A stretch of DNA of 64,000 bases, from contig CM039516.1 in the NCBI GenBank assembly GCA_022432975.1, forward strand, positions 36,607,599-36,671,598, read 5' to 3'. A program made the position numbers and the translations under genes. Position 1 is the stretch's first letter; each line of letters begins with the position of its first letter. Of this stretch, positions 799 to 59,826 are shown piece by piece. A model generated the notes under the pieces. The model had not been told where the DNA came from, did not search any database, and saw only the letters and a program-made list of their open reading frames with translations. The stretch is from Begonia masoniana. Lineage: Eukaryota > Streptophyta > Magnoliopsida > Cucurbitales > Begoniaceae.

Positions 799-898
799 NN
801 NNNNNNNNNNNNNNNNNNNNNNNNNNNNNNNNNNNNNNNNNNNNNNNNNNNNNNNNNNNNNNNNNNNNNNNNNNNNNNNNNNNNNNNNNNNNNNNNNN
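799..898. other. Assembly gap of 100 N
   Basis: Exactly 100 unknown bases, the conventional size for a scaffold gap of unknown length. The true distance between the flanks is therefore not known. Confidence 0.98.
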
Positions 899-8603: not shown

Positions 8604-10229
8604 GACAATGTAACACCCCGGAATTCCATAAACGTGAGTTGCCCTTAGATTAGATTATATTGTGGAAACTTAACATAGATCCTAGAAGCACTTAAATTAG
8701 AAGCAGGAATTAGAGGGAAAAACTATAGAGATGAAGAGGTTTAGGGTATTATTAGTGAGAATAAATGTAAAGGCAAAGAAAAGAAGTAGATGAGGGCATA
8801 AGAAGGGAACTTCCACGTTGGATTAGTGTGAAGTAAGGAGGGGGTAGCTTTTATAATTTTCTTAAAAATTGTGATGAAAGTTTGAATGAAAGAAAGTGGA
8901 TTATTAAAAGGTGTTAGGTGAAGGGTAATTAGGCAAAAACTTGTCTTCTTCTTCCATCGTGAACCCTAAGTCCTCCATTGTTGAAGTTTCAAGCTCCATT
9001 TGGTGAAGAAAGTAGCAAGTTTAGTGGGTCAAATTGATGGGTTTTAAGTTGCATGCAATTCTTTGGGAGTTTTTAGTGTTTTGCTGGTGTTTTAGTGAGG
9101 TTTGGTAAAGGTTTGGAAACCCTAATGGTGAAGCTCCAAATTTTCTTTTCCTTGGCTGTATTTTCTTGTCATTTTGATGATTTAAACCTTAGATAGGTTG
9201 GTTTAAGTTGTTTATAGGGATAGATTAGAGTTAGAGGTGAAATTAGTGAAAAATCGGTTTTGGTACATTATGTTGCCGGTTCTGTTTTTGTAGAATTAGA
9301 TTGGCCATGTTGTGTGGTTGGTAAATTGGGTTGATTCAATGGATAGTAGACATGTAGAGGTTTACGGAATGAGTTGGATCGTTTAAATCCGATGAAAAAT
9401 GAGTAAGTATGGCCGATTGAAGTTTAGATATTGAAAATGAGGAAAATCGGGATTTTTAGTTTAGTTGTGTTAAAGTTAGTTGTTTGTAGTAAGAGTTAGA
9501 TTAAATATCCTTTAGAATTGATTTATAATGCCTAAGTGAATTCTATATATATGTTAGGTTGACGAATGAGCATTTGGACTAATCGAGCGAGCAATTAAGA
9601 GTACGTACGAAGAATTCAGGTAAGTAGTGGTTAATTTTGATTGTGCCTTCAGGCCTACACCATGGAACGGTAGAGATTTGTTTGATTGTTTGGTTGTTTT
9701 GTTTGGTTTTGTGGTTAAGCATTTATATGACATGCATCATTGTTTTCAAACTACGAAAAACGAGTTTTGAGCATAGTTTTGATGTGTGAGCTTGAAACGT
9801 AAAAAGATAAGAAAATAATGCAACGTGGTTTCGAGTAGAGTCGCCTCGTCGGGGAATAGTGCTAGAGTAGCACCTCGAGAGGGTCTCTATGAGATATGCA
9901 TTGCTGAAGATATGTAATGTGTTGAGAATATGAACGCCTCATCGGGAAGTAGTGCTAGTGTAGCACCTCTAGAGGGTTCTATGATCGATGTGGGAGGAGA
10001 TCGTGTATGGCTGTCCAATGGATGGGGACCGGATGTGTGTTGTCCGATCTTGCTTTGCTAGGTCAAGGTGTGGTCGTCCAGTGAGCGGGGCTCGGATGTG
10101 TGCCTACTTGATCCACACGGAAAAGTGAAAGATTAACGAAACGAGAACAACAAAGCGAGTAGAAACTGTATGCGTTAGGGGTTGTGTATGCATTGTGTTT
10201 TGTTTACATTCATTATTCCCTACTTGCTA

Positions 10230-10606
10230 TGTAACGACCCTTTTTTCCAGCAAGATATTGTCCGCTCTGGGGATCGAGCCGCAGCCTAATATCCTCCCCT
10301 CATGGCTTTGTTTGGCGAGGACTTCACAGTCGGTCACCCAACCTGGTACTATTCTCGCCGAAGCACTTTTAACTTCGGAGTTCTTATGGGATCCGTTGTC
10401 AATTGTGCTCTAAAACGCGTCTTACTATTTTGGGAAGGTGTATTTACATATGTTTCATTTCCACATACTTCCCCAAGCGATGTGGGATTGTGACGACCCC
10501 CACATTACGACCTACCCCCTTCACCGGCCTTTTTCCAGCGCGGACGCACCGCCATCCGGGTCTAGATCCAGTATACGGGCCAGTCGTGCACATATGGGTC
10601 ATCACA
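10230..10606 (-). repeat. Cassandra LTR 1 with 5S-like module
   Basis: 377 bp on the minus strand from TGTGATGACCC to GGTCGTTACA. It contains a 5S rRNA-like segment with GGATCCCATAAGAACTCC and the box C-like GGTTGGGTGACCGACTG. The internal region and PBS follow at 10607-10676. Confidence 0.9.
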
Positions 10607-10676
10607 ATCACCCCCCTCGGGGGCCCAACGTCCTCGTTGGCCACATTTCCGGTTGGGTATAGGCTCTGATACCATT

Positions 10677-11041
10677 TGTAACGACCTTTTTTTCCAGCAA
10701 GATATTGTCCGCTCTGGGGATTGGGCCGCAGCCCAATATCCTCCCCTCACGGCTTTGTTTGGCGAGGACTACCCAGTCGGTCACCCAACCTGGTACTACT
10801 CTCGCCGAAGTACTTTTAACTTCGGAGTTCTTATGGGATCCGTTGTCAATTGTGCTCCAAAACGCATCTTACTATTTTGGGAGGATCTCTTTACATATGT
10901 TTCATTTCCATATATTTCCCAAAGCGATGTAGGATTGCATTACGACTTACCCTTTTCACCGGCCTTTTTCCCCCGCGGACGCACATCCATCCAGGTCCGG
11001 ATCCAGTATACGGGCCAGTCGCGCACATATAGGTCATCACA
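10677..11041 (-). repeat. Cassandra LTR 2 with 5S-like module
   Basis: 365 bp on the minus strand, with the same ends and 5S-like module as LTR 1. The internal region with the reversed PBS GGCTCTGATACCA is at 11042-11111. Confidence 0.9.
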
Positions 11042-11111
11042 ATCACCCCCCCTCGGGGCGCAAAGTCCTCGTTGACCACATTTCTGGTTGGGTACAGGCT
11101 CTGATACCATT

Positions 11112-11478
11112 TGTAACGACCCCTTTTCCCAGCAAGATAATGTCCGCTCTGTGGATTGGGCCGCAGCCCAATATCCTCCCCTCACGGCTTTGTTTGGCGA
11201 GGACTTCCCAGTCGGTCACCTAACCTGGTACTACTCTCGCTGAAGCACTTTTAACTTCAGAGTTCTTATGGGATCCGTTGTCAATCGTGCTCCAAAACGC
11301 GTCTTACTATTTTGGGAGGGTTTCTTTACATATGTTTCATTTCCACATACTTCCCCAAGCGATGTGAGATTGTGACGACCCCCACATTACGACCTACCCC
11401 TTTCACCGGCCTATTTCCCGCCGCCATCCAGGTCCAGATCCAGTATACGGGCCAGTCGTGCACATATGGGTCATTACA
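11112..11478 (-). repeat. Cassandra LTR 3 with 5S-like module
   Basis: 367 bp on the minus strand. Its U3-type end reads GGTCATTACA on the plus strand. The third internal region (11479-11550) ends in GGCTCTGATACCATAAC, directly against the inverted core. Confidence 0.9.
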
Positions 11479-12139
11479 ATCACCCCCCCCGGGGGCCCAA
11501 CGTCTTTGTTGGTCACATTTCCGGTTGGGTACAGGCTCTGATACCATAACTGTGACGACCCCCGACCCGTTCGGGGCCGGGGAGCCGTCACTCCGGGACA
11601 TTCAAAACAGGGACCTTTTTTTCTTGTAAACAAACCAACCCTTAAAACTTTACACAGAGAGAAAACATTTATCTGAATTTAAATGCAAACGGGAAACAGT
11701 TAAAATTGGACAGCAAAATGAAAAACAGAGGACATCAGTAAGACTGGAACACTTAAAATTTGGACATAAACTTTTCCTAGACGAATGCGGGGAGACAGGG
11801 AGAATCGTAAACGGGAAGACAAAAGTGGATGATGAAAATAAACAGGTGGAAATGGACGACTGACATGCAGTGAAGACCTAATAAAATGGGAAACAGAAAT
11901 TGGATGTCATGCCGGAAGAAGGGCTACAGTGAATGACAAGATCGGGTGATCTAGGGCAGAAGAAGTAAATAAACTGAGGCAGAAGAAGTAGGCAGATGAT
12001 GTCAGGCGGAAGATGTAAATAAACTGGGCGGGCGATATAGACAAGCAGTAGATGTGAATAAGACAAAAGTGAACAGTAAACAGCGGCAGATGTGAATAAG
12101 ACAAAAGTGAACAGCAAATAGCGGCAGATATGATTTTAA

Positions 12140-12292
12140 AAGGCAGTGGTGGATGTAATTTTAAAAGCAGCGGTGGATGTGATTTAAAAAGGGCAGCGGT
12201 GGATGTAATTTTAAAAGCAGCGGTGGATGTGATTTTAAAGGGCAGCGGTGGATGTAATTTTAAAAGCAGCGATGGATGTGATTTTAAACGTT
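12140..12292. repeat. Minisatellite GCAGCGGTGGATGTGATTTT, left arm
   Basis: About six units of ~25 bp alternating GCAGCGGTGGATGTAATTTT and GCAGCGGTGGATGTGATTTT. The inverted counterpart is at 12660-12850. Confidence 0.85.
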
Positions 12293-12596
12293 GTATTGAA
12301 TCTTTCGATGTATTTAAAACCTCTGTATTTGACAGTTGAATTTATACTTTGAAGTATTCTGGAATTGTTTGGAATATTTTCTCTTTTAGGGTGTACACAG
12401 GATTATCTCCGATTTTAGAGCCATCCATGCAGTATGGTTTCTTAAACCTCGGTTGTGTTTTCTGATATGTCTAAAATCATGTTTTGAATCGGTTTTTGAA
12501 GTTTGAAGCTTTTATACTTTTTGTTTTCACGTTTTCTGTTTTATGTATTCCTGTTAAAGGTCATAATTTTGCCTTTAAACTCTACTTCCACCAATT

Positions 12597-12850
12597 CACA
12601 TCCACCGCTGATGACGTCATCTGTTTTACATCGCCCGATGACGTCATCTGTTTTACATTTACCGCTGCCTTTGAAATCACATCCACCGCTGCCCTTTAAA
12701 ATCACATCCACCGCTGCTTTTGAAATCACATCCACCACTGCCCTTTAAAATCACATCCACCGCTGCTTTTAAAATTACATCCACCGCTGCCCTTTTTAAA
12801 TCACATCCACCGCTGCTTTTAAAATTACATCCACCGCTGCCTTTTAAAAT
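12597..12850. repeat. Minisatellite in the right arm, with TGACGTCA sites
   Basis: About eight inverted units of the same ~25-bp repeat (ATCACATCCACCGCTGC). It begins with two copies of a segment holding the palindrome TGACGTCA (12612-12619 and 12639-12646); a third copy of the palindrome is at 12979-12986. Confidence 0.8.
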
Positions 12851-13485
12851 TATATATGCCGCTGTTTACTGTTCACTTTTGCCTTATTCACATCTGCTGC
12901 TGTTTACTGTTCACTTTTGTCTTATTCACATCTACCGCTAGTCTATATCGCCCGCCTAGTTTATTTACATCTTCCGCCTGACGTCATCTGCCTACTTCTT
13001 CTGCCTCAGTTTATTTACTTCTTCTGCCCTAGATCATTTGATCCTGTCATTCACTGTAGCCCTTCTTCCGGCATGACATCCAGTTTCTGTTTCCCATTTT
13101 ATTTGGTCTTCACTGCATGTCAGTCGTCCATTTCCGCCTATTTATTTTCATCGTCCACTTCTGTCTTCCCGTTTACGATTCTCCCTGTCTCCCCGCATTC
13201 GTCTAGGGAAAGTTTACATCTAAATTTTTAAGTGTTCCAATCTTACTTATTTCCTCTGTTGTTCATTATGCTGTCCAATTTTAACTGTTTCCCGTTTTGC
13301 TTTTAAATTCAGAGAAATGTTTTCTCTCTGTGTAAGTTTTCAGGGTTGGTTTGTTTACAAAAAAAAAAATGGTCCCCGTTTTAAATGTCCCGGAGTGACG
13401 GCTCCTCGGCCCCGAACGGGTCGGGGGTCATCACAGTTATGGTATCAGAGCCTGTACCCAACCGGAAATGCCGAGGGGGGGTGAT

Positions 13486-13862
13486 TGTGATGACCCATAT
13501 GTGCACGATTGGCCCGTATACTGGATCCGGACCCAGATGGCGGTGCGTCCGCTCGGGAAAAAGGCAGGTGAAGGGGGTAGGTCGTAATGTGGGGGTCGTC
13601 ACAATCCCACAACGCTTGGGGAAGTATGTGGAAATGAAACATATGTAAAGAGACCCTCCCAAAATAGTAAGACGCGTTTTGGAGCACGATTGACAACGGA
13701 TCCCATAAGAACTCCAAAGTTAAAAGTGCTTCGGCAAGAGTACTACCAGGTTGGATGATCGACTGGGAAGTCCTCGCCAAACAAAGCCGTGAGGGGAGGA
13801 TAGTGGGCTGCGGCCCAATCCCCAGAGCGGAAAATATCTTGCTGGGAAAAGGGGTCGTTAGA
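13486..13862 (+). repeat. Cassandra LTR 4 with 5S-like module
   Basis: Starts TGTGATGACCC and ends GGTCGTTAGA (the terminal CA is mutated to GA). The 5S-like module runs with the plus strand from about 13672. The PBS ATGGTATCAGAGCC follows. Confidence 0.88.
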
Positions 13863-13924
13863 AATGGTATCAGAGCCTGTACCGAACCAGAAATGTGGCC
13901 AACGAGGACGTTGGGGGGGGTGAT

Positions 13925-14302
13925 TGTGATAACCCATATGTGCACGACTGGCTTGTATACTAGATCCAGACCCGGATGACAGTGCGTCCGCATGGGAAAA
14001 AGGCCGGTGAAGGGGGTAGGTCGTAATGTGGGGGTTCGTCACAATCCCACATCGCTTGGGAAAGTATGTGGAAATGAAACATATGTAAATAGATCTTTCC
14101 AAAATAGTAAGATGCGTTTTGGAGCACAATTGACAACGGATCTCATAAGAACTCCAAAGTTAAAAGTGCTTCGGCGAGAGTAGTACCAGGTTGGGTGACC
14201 GACTGGGAAGTTCTCACCAAACAAAGCCGTGAGGGGAGGATATTGGGCTGCGGCCTAATCCCCAGAGCGGACAATATCTTGCTGGAAAAATGGGTCGTTA
14301 CA
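13925..14302 (+). repeat. Cassandra LTR 5 with 5S-like module
   Basis: 378 bp, TGTGATAACCC to GGTCGTTACA, the right end of the composite. The 5S-like part at about 14108-14230 includes AGTTAAAAGTGCTTCGGCGA and GGTTGGGTGACCGACTGGG, which correspond to box A/intermediate element and box C of 5S genes. Confidence 0.9.
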
Positions 14303-15247
14303 TGCTAAGCATTAGACTTACGTTTTGTGTTCTATGGTGTAGGTGAGTACGTGCTCTCAGGTGAGCTATATGAGGGAGGCCAGGAGTAGGACGCAGTCGG
14401 AGACGCATGCGGTATGCCGGTGCAGGCAGTTGTTGAGGCGTCTTGACCATGACGCAGCTGAGAGGAGTGTTAAATGGGGTATTTTGATGGAGATTTAGAA
14501 TTGTACATAAGTTAGGAAACTTGAAACTCTTTTGTTATGTATTTGAGACGTATTTTATAAAATGTATATTTTCAAGATTTTTGTTTTAGAAAAATTAAAC
14601 GTTATGCTACTCAGTTTTTCATAAAAGGATCGATGTTGGTTTTCATCAATTTTTACGTTTCTGCTGACATTTTAGAGTCGAGTTTCCGGGATTTTCACGT
14701 GTCAAGAAGTTAAAAATGTTGGGAAGGTTTTAGGTGAATTAGAAGTGTGAGAATTGAAGAAAAATTGAAAATGGTGGAAGTGGGTCGAAATGGTGCACTG
14801 GTGGCTGAGGTTGGTGCGCAGGGCTACTGGTGGGCTCGTGCAACAGGCGCGCGGTGGCCGTGCGCAGCGCCTAGCACCGATCGATGGCAAAATTGGTGCA
14901 AAATTGGTCGGCAACCCGAGAGGGTGCAAGCGCTGATCAATCGGCACCAAGCGCGCAAGACGCGCTGCTTGGGCAGCGCGCGCACCGAGTGCGTGCACGC
15001 AGTGCCCATGGTGGGCCATTTTGATTTTTTTCAAATTTTTTCTTTTTCCAATATGTTTTAACGCGGCATTTTCTGACACGTTTTATACTTATTTTACTAA
15101 CGGTTTCCACACGTTTTCGAATTTTCGAAAAACTCAAAAATCGAGTCAAAAGTTTATTGAAAATCTTTTTAATCGCAGTTTAATGGTTTGTATGAGTGAG
15201 CAAAGTAGCGACTCGAGCTCGAGTGGGTTCGGGGGCGTTACAGACAA

Positions 15248-17042: not shown

Positions 17043-19264
17043 GATGATGACAACCTATAAATTTGATTAAATATAACTCCCCCTTAGGAAATGCATATAT
17101 TCCAAAAACAAACACAGAGCATATCAGAGTTTAAAAAACAGTCAAAAATATGCATACACAAATCATAGTAACTAATTTCACCGATCAAATATATTCTCCC
17201 CATTGACATTATCAAAAACAAACAAACACAAAGACAGCAGAAGCAATGCAGTCACCACATGGATAGAAACATAAGAGAAATGTCATTAGAATATCAATAA
17301 AAATGTTTACAAATAAAATCTGCTACTTAAAGAAAACTAAAAAATGAGTCTAGAAAGCTTGGCTAATCCAAGCGGGCACTTCAAGATCTGAACGAAAAAT
17401 AAGTATCCACAAGGGCGCGAAGTGAAGCAATAGTGGGAGGAAGTGGTGCTTGATAGATCACGATATCCTGGCATGGAGAAGGCTCTGGCTGAGGAGCATC
17501 AGATGGAGAGGGTCCTTGATAGACCACCAAATCAAAGCAGGGAGCAGAAATGGCAGAGATTTCGGGAAACATTATCATGTCCAGACAAGAGGGATGTGCT
17601 ACAGATGGAGAAGCAGTAAGAGAGGCATCCAGAGGACTTGAGGACTCGAAAGGGGGCTCTCGGGCAGAAATAGCAGCAGAAGGAGAGAATGTCAGCGTAG
17701 CTTCCTGAAGATCTAAGGGCAGGAGCCGAGCATCTTCACCTGCCTCTGGACGGATGATCGGAGGGAGGAAGTCTTCAGAACAAGCCTCTGTGACACAGAC
17801 TAAATTGGATGGTTCAGTTTCAGGTTCGGGATGCAGATTGTCAACAAAGGATCTGAGCAACTCAAGTTCCTTGGCAACAATGCGGCGATGACCATCCATT
17901 TTTGTTGCCAGCAACCCAAGACCAATATCCATAGCAATGCTTATGTTCTTTTGAGTCTGGTCAAGCTTGGCGTCTAGAGATTTCTCAAGCTGACAGAGGG
18001 CGGACCCTAGACTGTCAATAGAGGCCTTTAAATCATTGTATTGAGCCTCACTCAACGAAAATCTCCGCTGATAAGTCAGAGGAGTGGCAGGAGTAACTGA
18101 TGGAATTGGTGAGGAAACGTGGACAAGTGGAGCTGTTAGTAGTGGAGGAGGTGGTTGGACTGGAGGAGGAGGTGGTAGTAAGGGAGGAGGTGGTTGGACT
18201 GGTGGAGGAAGTTGGACTGGAGGAGGGGTTTGGACTGGAGGAGGAAGGGGGACTGGAGGAGGCAGAGAAGGTACCAAAAGAGTAGGGAAGGAGATGGCTG
18301 AGGAACTGAGATGGCCTCAAAAAGATGGGCTGGAGAGGATGGAGCAGAGAGTCTTGGCACTGGTGGAGGAAGGTGGGAGCGTGAGACCAGAGATTGAGGA
18401 GGGGAAATATCAAATGCAGGTATCTCTGAGTCACCACCTCCTTCTTGCATTGATGACTCTTCATCCAAAATCAGTTTCATTTTTCCTTTTCTGACGGCTG
18501 CAACCTTAGCAGCCCTTTGCTTGGACTGATCCAAAACTGTAACGCCGCCGAACCCACCCTAGTTCGGTGCGCTACTTTGCTAACCAATCCCACATTAAAA
18601 CATAATTTATAAGCCTAGACTCGTTAATTTCCCTTAATCCTAACCGCTAAGCACCACAACATCTTTCCCGAAAATTTCGGCAAAATAACGCCTGAAAATT
18701 GCGCCTAAAAAATGCTAGGTACCTGCAACCGAATAAATCCCAACCAACCAGATCCCGAAAATACTTACTTAACTAACCAGCAACCAGCATACGAAATCTC
18801 CAAATAACAATAAGAGGAACCTAAAATGCGAACATCTGAAAAATCCACAATATAGGCGATACATCACCCGTAAATATGACTAAATACAACATTTCCCAAA
18901 AAGAGTTAAAAAAAACTGAATACAATCCAATCCAACACATTTCCCCGAAGATCATGGTCGAGACGCCCCGACAACTGCCTGCACCGGCGTGCTCCATGTG
19001 CCACCGACTGCCACCTAGTCCCGGGCTTCATCATCTAGCTCACCTGATCTTGTTTTCACCTACACCACAGAACACACACACACACGTAAGCTTAAGCTTA
19101 GCAAGTAATGAAGAACGAATATAAACATTCACAACGCACACCACACTCACACAATACTCAAGCAATAACCAACAAACAAATAACACCGACAACCAAGCAG
19201 GTCACTCACACAATACTCAAACACCAAACACCAAACAATAAACAACTTCTAACACAGTTTGCCT

Positions 19265-20237: not shown

Positions 20238-21380
20238 TTGATGGAGTGGAGAAGAAGACCACTTTGTCTTCGTTTTAAACCTAACTTTTCTTTCTTTTTT
20301 TTTTCATTTAATTACCATGTAAATTACCAATTAACCCTCACTTTTCCCCCACCACCTAGCAGCCAACGATTCATCTAAAACCCTCCACTTCTTCCTTTCA
20401 ATTTACTACATTTTGATTGGTTAGTTGCATTTGACTTTTCAAACCAAAGTTCTCCACCAATCACAAATTGGTTTGACATGTCAAACTCTCCACTTCTCAT
20501 TACTCTTCTAATACCCTTCTATGTACACTAATCTTAAATAATTGAACCCTCATGCTTGACCTAGACTAGGGTCACACACGTTCTGGGAAAATTCTTGGTG
20601 TTACAAAAATAAAATTCCCTTGACGGGTTCTCTTAATTCTCATCCTTGTCAAAGTGGATTTAGAGTAGTAACTGGATGATTTGAGACAGGAAGGATCCTC
20701 ATCCTCGGGAAATTCAACCTCGGACATCTGAAAAATCTTCATGAGAAGGAGGTTATAGGGAAAAGATGTAGGCCCTGAAGAAACACACTGAATCATCCTT
20801 CTCAGAATAATGTATCCTATTTCAACCGTGGTCTTTTGATAGAGGGCAAAAAGAACAACAAATTCCATGCTGCTAATATCATCATAATGACCACCCTTAG
20901 GAATAACGTTATAACTGATCATCTGATGGAGAAGTCAAGCTCTAATGGTTAAATGTTTGCTCTTTAAGGAATTGGGAATGTTGTTCGGGTCTAGGGCAAT
21001 TTCTTTCAAAAATTGTTTTCCCTCGGGAGTTCCAAGAAATGGGGGTTCTAGCCCTGTTGAATAGATTTTGGGATGTTGATCTAGATGAGGACTCCCCAGA
21101 AACTTACTTAGAGATTGGGAGGTAAGAACTATGTGTTTTTCATACACATAGCTCGAGATGGTTGATTGGTCAGAAGGATAACTAAGATTGACATAGAACA
21201 TTTTAATGGCAGTGGGGTAAAAGAAGGATTCAACTTCAAACAACCCTATTAAACCAATGTCTGTCAAGGGAGCTACTAAATTTAAACCTACTAACTCGTC
21301 TGGAACAATACCACGACTTGGAATCAACTTCTTATCTTTAAAGTACTCGTGATACCTGGCTTTAGCAGTCTGATTGAGGA

Positions 21381-21894
21381 AATAGAACGACGGCCAACTA
21401 TTTGCACGAGGAATCACCGAAGTTGGACGAGCAGAGACTTTGGCTTTCTTCTTGGTCGGTTCGGAAACTCCACGAGATGATGAAACCAGATGATCCATTG
21501 GAAAGATAAGATCGAGAGAGAGAGGATTGGTAGGGCTGGGGTTTTCAGAAAGAGTGCGAAAGATGAAGCGTCTTGGTGAAGAAATAAAAATTTAAAAGAA
21601 ATAAAGCACCGCCCGACGTGATGAAGTCACACGTGTAAATAGAACGACAGCCAACTATTTGCACGAGGAATCACCGAAGTTGGACGAGCAGAGACTTTGG
21701 CCTTCTTCTTGGTCGGTTCAGAAACTCCACGAGATGATGAAACCAGATGATCCATTGGAAAGATAAGATCGAGAGAGAGAGGATTGGTAGGGCTGGGGTT
21801 TTCAGAAAGAGTTCGAAAGATGAAGCGTCTTGGTGAAGAAATAAAAATTTAAAAGAAATAAAGCACCGCCCGACGTGATGAAGTCACACGTGTA
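21381..21894. repeat. 257-bp tandem duplication over the third-ORF start
   Basis: 21381-21637 and 21638-21894 are nearly identical with a period of 257 bp. Each contains the first ~38 codons of the third ORF, its ATG (cat at 21496-21498 and again near 21753) and the upstream leader. The upstream copy therefore encodes only a truncated N-terminus. Confidence 0.92.
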
Positions 21895-22067
21895 ACACTG
21901 ATATCGTCCGATAGATGACACGTGTCAGCAGATTAGAAAATACATCATCCGATGCATAGACATCATCCGGTCAGTGGAGGATACATATCATCCGGTTATC
22001 TATATGCACCGATTTCATCAATAAATCAGATCACTCTTTCACAGGAAGACATTCCAACAGAAGAGAC

Positions 22068-53730: not shown

Positions 53731-56700
53731 AGCAGAGTTCAACCTTCATCATGGGACCTGAAGGTCCAGCTGAAATTACAAGGTCACATGCCAACGATCT
53801 TGAAGTTCTCGATCTGAAAAATTCTGAGACAATCACACTGCAGCTTTAGCAAGTGATTCTAATGAAGCTCCTGACTGCTAAGTAAGAACCATGAAAAGGC
53901 AACAAAAAAACTACCTAAATTCTACATTCTCGAAGGCATATAAATAAAAAAAACTGGATAAGAACTCAAATGAATTCAATTAGTTACAAAATTCTTCAAG
54001 AGAATATCATCTTCAAGAATCCATGAATAAATAGATGGAACTGATGACATGCACACGTCTATGGGCTTAAGTTCAACTGTCCAAAAAGATTAAGAATAGG
54101 ATCTGAGCTGAAATTTTGAGAGAAGATGGTTGAAAAAGCTCATTACATTTCCAATTTACTAATGTTCAACATTGGTAAAGGCTTGCACTAAGCTAAAAAT
54201 TAAGAATATTTCTTAGTTATCGTCTCCATTTCTCCAAAGTTCTTACCTGGTGAAGAAGCTTTTTCAATCCGTACAAAGAAAGTGTAAAACCTGATAATTT
54301 AAATTTTGAAATATCAGGATGTTACTAAATGTAATTACTGGAAGTGTAACGATGAGTCATATTGACATAGGTTACATCATTGGACGAGCCGATGGCTGAT
54401 GGGTAATGGAGGTTATGGAAAATTGAGTTTTCTCCCTAAACCTCTTCTTCCTGTTTGGGAATTTAACATGAAAGTTTGATCGAGGTTGAGAAGGATTGAA
54501 ACTCAGCTCTCATGACCTTATTAAGATTTCAAGAAATTTATTAGAATTTTTTTTTTTGAATTATAGAAACTCAAAATTGATGGTTAACAATCAAAGATTT
54601 CGAACAAAATTTAGTTATAAATGTCGAGTTTAGCTTCAATATCAATTTTGGTATTGAGAAATTGGGAAAGATTGGATTACGACACAACGAGTGCCAACGA
54701 CAATGCAGCAATTCGCAAGGCTGTCTCATTGAAGATCACAAGTCTAATGACAAGTGAGGAGACTTGCTCGCCAACCCACTTGTTCAGCCCATAAATGTAG
54801 CGGGTAGAACTCAACTCAGCTAACTACAATGATGAGCTGGGCCTGGATCTGTCCCTATCGACGAACCGAGCCAAGCAAGTGTTCCAAGCTTGTGAGCTTG
54901 TCTGGGACCGAGCCAAACAATCTATTGAACGAACTTCTTCATCTCAGTAAGATATTGTCTGCTTTAGGTCGTCCATATAGCCCCGACGGTTTTGTTTTGG
55001 TGAGTACTTCCCAAGCGGTCACTCAACTTGGTACTGCTCTTGCCGGAGCACTCTTAACTTCAGAGTTCTTACGGAATCTGATGCCAGTTGTATTCCAAAA
55101 CGTGTCTTACTATATTGAGAAGGTTTTTTTTACATATGTTTCATTTCCATCTTCTTTCAAAACAATGTGAGATTGTGCCTGATCCCTTATTTCGGGTCGT
55201 CACAATCATCGCTCCCTCTTTTGGGGTCCAATGTCCTCTTTGGCTACATCTCTTTCCCACCAAACGATGTGGTATTGTGACAAGTCCCTCTCGGCCTTCA
55301 CAATAGATCGATAACCCCATTTCGGGCCACATCTTAGGTTGGGTACAGACTCTGATACTATTTGTAACGAACTCTTTCATCCTAATAAGATATTGTCCGC
55401 TTTGGGTTGCCCATACAGCTTTCACATATTTTTTTTGGCGAAAACTTCCCAAGCGGTCACCCAACTTGATATTGCTCTCGCCAGAGCACTCTTAACTTTG
55501 AAGATTTTGTGAAATCCGATGCCAATTATACCCCAAAACGCGTCTTACTATATTGAGAGGGTTCCTTTTATATGTTTCATTTTCATCTTTTCTTCAAACT
55601 ATGTGGCATTGCGACCGACCCCTTATTTCGGGTCATCACAATCTAGCTCACAAGCCAATCCAGCCCACCAACCGTCACCCCAATTTTAGCCTGCAACTCA
55701 AAATATATTACAAAATAGGCGTATTGATTCAGCCTGCTAATTGGCTCGAATGACAATTTTAAAAGAGCTAAAATTTACTCATAAACCATTCTCCACCCCA
55801 CTAGTTATAGAAAAACACACCATTTTTCGACGTGGGAGTTGTACAGTGGGCATCCTTCCGGTGGCTGGCTCCACCTCTTTCTCCCACTCAAAATCTAATT
55901 ATTTAATGATTTAATTTAATAAAATTCACAGAAAAATCCCATAGTCTAGCGATTCCAAGAACAGTGTAGGAATTTTTTGAAATTATGAGGCCACAAGAGA
56001 GAGATTAAGATTTCAACCTTTTTTTTTTGTTTTTTCATGCTCTCTCTCAAGAAATAAAATAATAAGAAAATGGCATTAATTCCCTCTTAATTATTAGAGA
56101 AAATAAGTGGAATTTGATTGATTTTAGAAGTATAGTTAAATTAATATTCGTTAATTTTTTGTAGTTTTTGTAAATACAGAAGTCAATTAATATAATAAAT
56201 AGAAAAAGAGTAGAGAAGCATGATTTCATCTCCTTAGTCAGTACTCTATAAAACATTATTTCAGTTAAATATAGTCAAAACAATAGTATTTTGTGTTTTC
56301 CTATAAGACTTGTACAACCATGTAATGCTTTTGAGTTGCATAAAAGCTTGAACTACTAAGCTAAAATAAATATAATTTTATATATGGTGTTATACTAAAT
56401 ATATTGTACTTTTTAATAAATTAAATTATGAGACTTAGAGATTGGATTTCTTAATCGATGGTCATGTAATTAGTAAATTATTCATTCGATTAGACTATGA
56501 TGCACTTATTTTAGAGTTTTATTTGGAACCTGATAAGCTAATGAAAAGGCTAGTCTTAAGAAGGTAAGATCAGACTTGTACTTAGATTTAACAATTGAAG
56601 TTCTACATTAAATGTTGGAATAGTCTTGAAATATGGGTACTTGATATTATCTTTTCTTTTTCTATCTTTGTATACGCCTACGTATTGGTTTTAAACTTTA

Positions 56701-58908: not shown

Positions 58909-58923
58909 ACATTTTTTTTTTTT

Positions 58924-59124
58924 GTGTGCTTCTCTTAGTTTATGAAAATTATAGTTTGTTTGTAAATTGTAATTATTGAAATTTGAATGATTGAATACTG
59001 AGTTACTTATTTTTTTTTCTTGTACAGTTGTACTTATTATATCTATTTTGGACTCACTTTTGCAATGTTTTAAATGAAATGTTATTTGTGTTGAATGACT
59101 GCAATTGTTTTTTTGATAAAGGGA

Positions 59125-59125
<1 letters not shown>
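58924..59125. repeat. 202-bp block A, copy 1
   Basis: Nearly identical to 59625-59826; both are preceded by T tracts and begin GTGTGCTTCTCTTAG. Confidence 0.92.
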
Positions 59126-59625
<500 letters not shown>

Positions 59626-59826
59626 TGTGCTTCTCTTAGTTTATGAAAATTATAGTTTGTTTGTAAATTGTAATTATTGAAATTTGAATGATTGAATACT
59701 GAGTTACTTATTTTTTTTCTTGTACAGTTGTACTTATTTATATCTATTTTGGACTCACTTTTGCAATGTTTAAAATGAAATGTTATTTGTGTTGAATGAC
59801 TGCAATTGTTTTTTTGATAAAGGGAA

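Follow-up and report, generated by a model that had tools for sequence, protein, structure and literature searches.

In the Triticeae, template-switching complexes carry several long terminal repeats (LTRs) on the same strand within one 5-bp duplication and were read as having formed before integration (PMC1950507). Long tandem arrays of the non-autonomous terminal-repeat retrotransposon in miniature (TRIM) Cassandra have been reported, with template switching discussed as their origin in the available part of that article (PMC7215508). For a maize SMART TRIM, a figure legend (Fig. 2) gives an element "with two inverted TRIMs" and the duplication CTTCA (PMC4717578, available in part). Here, a stretch of 64,000 nucleotides from Begonia masoniana (contig CM039516.1, positions 36,607,599 to 36,671,598; "the window") was found to carry, at 10225-14307, an inverted Cassandra composite whose two outer ends are both U5 (3') LTR ends. 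It resembles the Triticeae complexes as a multi-LTR insertion inside one 5-bp duplication, the tandem arrays in the multi-LTR build of each arm, and maize SMART in its oppositely oriented TRIM units within one target-site duplication. Unlike the window, the Triticeae complexes are same-strand and share an internal LTR, with no inverted or U5/U5 form described; in the available text of the array study, the word "inverted" describes PCR primers, the single match for "palindrom" is in a reference, and "head-to-head" is absent. The SMART account, as far as it was accessible, leaves the outer LTR ends and the origin unstated, whereas here both outer ends are U5, members of the class have been counted in a single genome, cDNA-end bases are preserved at many joints and the window contains Ty3/gypsy LTRs. 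An inverted TRIM within a duplication is, by that legend, already published, and this sets a limit on the statement in the first-pass annotation that no U5-U5 palindromic Cassandra was known to have been described. No account of U5/U5 Cassandra dimers was found in the portions of the openly licensed literature that could be consulted: the accessible text of PMC10853983 has no match for inverted, palindrom or head-to-head, that of PMC11899658 has "inverted" in its reference list only, and that of PMC12789967 holds nothing on inverted Cassandra composites. Overall, it is likely that Cassandra cDNAs were joined at their U3 sides before integration, and that the linear inverted dimer with two U5 ends was then inserted as one element.

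The composite contains five 5S-bearing Cassandra LTRs (LTR1), three pointing leftward and two rightward. On the minus strand, the left arm consists of an outer LTR (10230-10606, 5S-like stretch at 10304-10416 on the minus strand), a middle LTR (10677-11041) and an inner LTR (11112-11478), with internal parts at 10607-10676 (primer-binding site 10663-10674, 2-nt spacer), 11042-11111 (primer-binding site 11098-11109, 2-nt spacer) and 11479-11550 (primer-binding site 11535-11546, with a GTTA spacer of the type found behind a second LTR family, LTR2). The right arm, on the plus strand, runs from a GTTA spacer, primer-binding site (13440-13451) and internal part at 13436-13485 through an inner LTR (13486-13862) and a 2-nt spacer with internal part (13863-13924, primer-binding site from 13865) to an outer LTR (13925-14302). 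With ordinary copies as a guide, LTR bounds were placed at TGTGATRACC...GGTCGTTACA, which gives LTRs of 365-378 bp in the window, and the U5 ends of the two outer LTRs form the termini of the composite, with TGTAACGACC at 10230 and GGTCGTTACA finishing at 14302. Five stretches resembling 5S rRNA reached or exceeded the Rfam gathering score (three minus, two plus; the lowest at 38.1 bits against a gathering score of 38), and their strands agree with those of the LTRs. Internal parts measure 46-68 bp and include TGGTATCAGAGC, which we take to be a methionine-tRNA primer-binding site. Such a site is a Cassandra trait according to the accessible part of PMC10853983, and TGGTATCAGAGC 3' of the LTR together with a G-run ahead of the LTR encloses a very short internal part, as in Cassandra. 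In an ordinary Cassandra the LTRs are direct and the outer ends are U3 at one side and U5 at the other; the composite has inverted LTRs and U5/U5 ends. It is assembled from Cassandra parts and is no ordinary Cassandra element. The first-pass annotation had described the two outer U5 ends, the three-plus-two arrangement and a single perfect TGCTA duplication, all of which are confirmed.

TGCTA is perfect at 10225-10229 and 14303-14307, brackets the whole composite, and was also selected by a scan for equal 5-mers outside paired LTR1 ends. A minus-strand relative of the flanking repeat (18952-19103, 77% alike there) reads TTACTTGCTAAGC, with one TGCTA at about 19099-19103 and no insert. Because this related repeat has a single TGCTA and an uninterrupted site, the TGCTA pair is a target-site duplication from one insertion of the entire composite. 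A single 5-bp duplication around the whole is also what Sabot and Schulman require of template-switching complexes; their outermost LTRs share one orientation and are highly alike, whereas those of the window are inverted and 92.7% alike. The earlier proposal that the composite integrated as one pre-formed molecule is supported by the perfect duplication, by this paralogous empty site and by eight further composites with perfect duplications (below). About 56 kb upstream, locus L009 (C15:36560000-36569999) has the same structure at 99.18% identity over 10,017 bp including flanks, with a 100-N gap at window 799-898 between the two. L009 is a duplicate of the window locus or the other haplotype; it may be the other haplotype in tandem placement rather than a segmental duplication. 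As a second independent insertion it was rejected, since its flanks are the same as those of the window locus, and it is left out of the counts.

Head-to-head composites recur in this genome. The exact Cassandra U3|U3 pattern (ends within 15 bases) was found at 24 places genome-wide, against 0 for a reversed-pattern control; two pairs of these places lie 0.2 and 1.2 kb apart, so that the insertions possibly number 22 or fewer. AT, the dinucleotide separating the polypurine tract (PPT) from the LTR, is present on both sides of 14 of the 24 joints, in four of them without an added base, and two joints appear to retain more of the PPT. Since an integrated LTR would border random target bases, AT kept on both sides indicates that these joints formed between linear cDNA ends. 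Retroviral 2-LTR junctions and joined linear cDNA ends likewise carry unprocessed end bases at the joint. Those retroviral junctions, of which a palindromic form is described in the available part of PMC1905944, are U5|U3 and intramolecular, whereas the joints here are U3|U3 and integrated, and several of them link two molecules. In L074 and L075 the joint involves a truncated end, and in L026 the primer-binding-site end of one molecule lies against the U3 end of the other.

Nine of the 24 U3|U3 loci were examined, and all six in which both outer U5 ends could be read are flanked by perfect duplications (CCGAT, CGAGA, CTTAG, AAAAT, AAAAC and ACTTG). L075 has AAGAC on both sides and L026 an ACAGG duplication. 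Altogether, nine of the 11 composites with LTR1 U5 ends on both sides that were read at both ends show perfect 5-bp duplications (the window, L026, L064, L067, L068, L069, L070, L071 and L075). Two loci were excluded from this count, one an array nested in another copy (L044, GAAAC/GAAAA) and one consisting of neighboring copies rather than one composite (L043). When pairs of LTR1 ends in the loci examined by then were scanned for equal 5-mers, many of these pairs being internal array ends, matches were obtained for 7 of 130 U5-U3, 4 of 59 U3-U5 and 3 of 17 U5-U5 pairs. The 11 perfect pairs among 189 on the same strand represent 10 loci (L038 and L049 are one), and because same-strand pairs with these ends give perfect 5-bp duplications, they serve as a check on the Cassandra LTR boundaries; the three U5-U5 hits are the window, L009 and L026. 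An orientation-blind sample was taken from the 3729 exact Cassandra internal starts in the genome (the first 100 listed, all in the first 22.5 Mb of C1), and its 74 clusters included three head-to-head and no tail-to-tail arrangements; L074 and L075 are two of the three head-to-head ones.

Pairwise comparison of LTRs in eight of the nine examined U3|U3 loci (L066 was left out) separated the arms in most cases. In L065, L068, L069 and L071, LTRs within an arm are 93.2-99.8% alike and those of different arms 77.8-84.0%. Three of these have perfect duplications: L069 (within-arm 99.5 and 99.8%, between-arm 83.7-84.0%), L068 (96.0 and 95.7%, against 77.8-78.6%) and L071 (93.2 and 95.8%, against 80.9-82.2%). 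L072 shows 99.5% within its single testable arm versus about 86% between arms, and L064 and L070 follow the same trend weakly (97.8-100% within, 93.6-95.8% between). These arms look like separately reverse-transcribed cDNAs, and because within-arm LTRs match and the arms differ strongly in several composites, two cDNAs would have been joined before one integration. The first-pass annotation had proposed a palindromic cDNA with U5 at both ends, made by template switching and used by integrase. The use of such a molecule by integrase is borne out, whereas template switching within one cDNA is not supported for the class, in which arms often belong to different Cassandra subfamilies and joints retain cDNA-end bases with small additions, as fits the joining of two cDNAs.

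A different pattern was observed in L067 (C8:37945050-37947450, positions 378-2043), where the inner-left and outer-right LTRs are 98.9% alike, the outer-left and inner-right LTRs 99.7%, and all other pairs 85.3-85.9%. This is as would be expected if two co-packaged cDNAs had swapped plus-strand strong-stop DNA and then been joined. The 5' LTRs of this head-to-head dimer look exchanged between two subfamilies, which may reflect reciprocal plus-strand transfer between molecules.

Other joint directions were counted with patterns that are unequal in length and degeneracy, so that the numbers compare only roughly with the 24 head-to-head places. The tail-to-tail pattern (U5|U5, with U3 outside) occurs at 20 places, 12 of which have an A-run/T-run spacer; the one of these 12 that was examined (L073) gave no Cassandra match. 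L073 (C13:10722150-10722950) and the 11 similar places appear as a short palindrome found at scattered sites, with AAAAAGGCGCCTTTTTT as its spacer and ends resembling an LTR U5 end. Two joined U5 cDNA ends should leave AA on the left and TT on the right, a combination seen in none of the other eight tail-to-tail places. Head-to-tail Cassandra joints were found at 46 places, and seven of these have the exact unprocessed-end form TTACA-AA-AT-TGTG, with an AA-AT joint that resembles a 2-LTR junction and is chromosomal. The excess of head-to-head over tail-to-tail joints could come from a requirement of integrase for U5 ends or, equally well, from joining mainly at U3 ends.

The center of the window composite, which the first-pass annotation had set down as an inverted non-Cassandra core, consists of two truncated Ty3/gypsy LTRs (LTR2) placed head-to-head, each in place of a Cassandra 5' LTR, an identity missed at that stage. 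The left copy (11551-12288, minus strand) is a U5-side part, and the right copy (12289-13435, plus strand) is longer, starting roughly 1.4 kb into a complete LTR2; the segment 12289-12694 is found in the right copy only. Aligned over 740 bases, the two differ at 42 (94.3% alike). Each has lost part of its U3 side, and the two abut at TTTTAAA (12282-12288), seven bases that, judged by LTR2 homologs, seem to be common to the two sides of the joint, as microhomology. LTR2 relatives are dispersed in the genome (1101 candidates), and among the 40 that were scored no copy exceeded 90% identity over the LTR2 end tested outside the window locus and L009. Seven copies were tried for TG..CA ends with a 5-bp duplication: true ends came from two solo copies with perfect duplications (L016, TGGAC; L018, CACTT), L017 matched only at a position that is not the LTR start, and four gave nothing in the stretch examined. 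Long, very regular minisatellite arrays lie in or beside the LTR at L017 (6-2315, with 26-base steps) and L019 (21-1709). Behind LTR2 in L011, matches to Retrotrans_gag, Ty3_capsid, RVP_2, RVT_1, RNase H and an integrase zinc domain were identified, split over three open reading frames separated by stops, which marks a broken copy; of four LTR2-associated reading frames searched for domains, that of L010 gave none.

In four of the 11 LTR2 ends examined (L010, L011, L015 and L019), GTTA-TGGTATCAGAG stands directly behind the LTR and leads into the element's own internal sequence; the remaining seven run into unrelated sequence. The window matches LTR2 elements through GTTA-TGGTATCAGAG and continues as Cassandra internal sequence, with divergence beginning within 0-4 bases after TGGTATCAGAG. 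Because the two are alike up to this point and Cassandra follows thereafter, the switch between families is placed at the shared primer-binding site. In normal reverse transcription, the primer-binding site is where plus-strand strong-stop DNA is transferred.

By similarity, the LTR2-Cassandra joint was found at six independent loci (the window, C7, C4, C15:14495023, C13:36009337 and C13:8333696). The C4 locus (L027) terminates in the U5 end of LTR1 at one side and that of LTR2 at the opposite side, with AAAAC next to each; the C7 chimera matches at four of five bases only when an upstream LTR2 start is assumed. These chimeras suggest that DNA of the two families came together in the course of reverse transcription, and whether LTR2 proteins move Cassandra is a separate matter. 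The autonomous partners of Cassandra were called unknown in 2020 (PMC7215508, available part). LTR2 is a candidate for this role, a lead suggested by the chimeras.

Following this reasoning, the 5' (U3) sides of two Cassandra cDNAs would be joined ahead of integration to form a linear inverted dimer with U5 at both free ends, as these ends are set by the tRNA primer. Integrase would insert the dimer like a single element and produce the usual 5-bp duplication. For the window, co-packaged LTR2 plus-strand strong-stop DNA may have been transferred to the primer-binding site of the Cassandra minus strand, extension through LTR2 may have been left incomplete, and the incomplete ends may have been joined at the shared TTTTAAA. 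Seen in this light, the window arms show an LTR2-for-LTR exchange akin to that in L067, joined inside LTR2 rather than at complete U3 ends. In HIV-1, second-strand transfer can be intermolecular, reaching the second template within a particle (PMC5651808, available part); there it takes place between HIV-1 variants, whereas here a Ty3/gypsy element would have supplied the strand and a non-autonomous TRIM the template, and in L067 two Cassandra subfamilies would have been involved.

Several results weigh against this interpretation. At three of the nine examined U3|U3 loci (L065, L066 and L072), the outer ends lie beyond the examined stretch and give no duplication comparison. The duplication of L074 matches at four of five bases (ATTCC/CTTCC), and the C7 locus (L025 and L059), tried as a further U5-U5 insertion, has unmatched outer bases (ACATT/GACTA) and is counted as a failure among the 11. 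Two of the duplications, AAAAC and AAAAT, are of low complexity, and L026 and L027 were found by a search with the window's own joint and hence are no random sample. In its exact 28-base version, the LTR2-Cassandra joint occurs at five places, four of them in the window locus and its near-copy, and because these five stand against 3729 exact Cassandra internal starts, such chimeras are rare. The only one-sided chimera with two comparable ends (C13:36009337) has the unmatched flanks TGGAA/ATTTA. In the window itself, the Cassandra units are 90.9-93.7% alike all round, with no separation by arm as two molecules would predict, and the arms are unequal, the left with three LTRs and the right with two. 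Unit ancestry is conflicting as well: of 15 informative sites, three group inner with inner, three outer with outer, three the middle-left with the outer-right unit, and six support other groupings. For the window, the joining of two molecules is therefore favored only modestly, and by analogy with the class.

Its most serious competitor is a fold-back during reverse transcription, in which one minus strand, extending via the transferred LTR2 strand, would fold at the self-complementary TTTAAA onto its own minisatellite and copy itself to the 5' end, yielding a palindrome with two U5 ends. A single chimeric event would then account for LTR2 in both arms, which are 94.3% alike, while over the end tested none of the 40 candidates scored out of 1101 exceeds 90% beyond the locus and its near-copy; the unpaired 406 bp (12289-12694) is one-sided and loop-like, and the seven bases shared at the joint fit as well. 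Against it, the arms differ in unit number (three and two), and the middle left unit is close to neither right unit. For the class, a fold-back leaves unexplained the arms that often belong to different subfamilies and the joints that have no loop. We regard it as possible for the window, though rather doubtful.

An origin after integration, through two independent Cassandra insertions or a later chromosomal inverted duplication, would find precedent in the nested and neighboring Cassandra copies at L044 and L043. It is nonetheless very unlikely, given the one perfect outer duplication and the related repeat with a single TGCTA, the perfect outer duplications that flank nine of the 11 composites of this kind, and the cDNA-end dinucleotides at many joints. 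Palindromes are also prone to assembly and library errors, and an unresolved hairpin might in principle imitate the structure. Such an artefact is even harder to credit, as 42 of 740 bases are mismatched between the LTR2 arms, unit numbers are unequal, the near-copy lies beyond the scaffold gap and the outer TGCTA duplication fits the empty site; perfect arm identity had been named earlier as the sign of a library hairpin, and both the divergence of the arms and the presence of the near-copy speak against one. Least credible of all is a foldback- or Mutator-like (MULE-type) DNA transposon that captured Cassandra LTRs, which would explain the overall shape of long inverted repeats with a short direct duplication, but whose own non-LTR inverted termini are replaced here by exact Cassandra U5 ends as in ordinary same-strand copies, with a core LTR that has gag-pol domains behind it elsewhere and parts in retroelement order with primer-binding sites; no search aimed at a transposase with such ends was made.

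Elsewhere in the window, further Cassandra LTR pieces lie at 1-203 and 54928-55643, the second pair being more distant (about 73-81% identity). Near-identical tandem repeats (98-99.7%) occupy 21380-21895 and 58912-59826, with steps of about 257 and 50 bases, and a tRNA search of the window returned no match.

A broader and more tentative proposal, which we put forward as something less than probable, is that head-to-head joining followed by U5-U5 insertion is a regular route for Cassandra in this plant (three of 74 clusters), and that the window records Cassandra together with a protein-supplying helper, LTR2, whose strong-stop DNA served as the 5' LTR of both arms in a shared particle. The composites indicate that a plant retroelement integrase is able, in vivo and repeatedly, to insert an inverted cDNA dimer by its two U5 ends, and that Cassandra cDNAs of different subfamilies meet and join ahead of integration. 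Where annotation looks for direct LTRs, such composites will probably be overlooked or misread. For Cassandra itself, LTR2 provides a concrete candidate for its autonomous partner.

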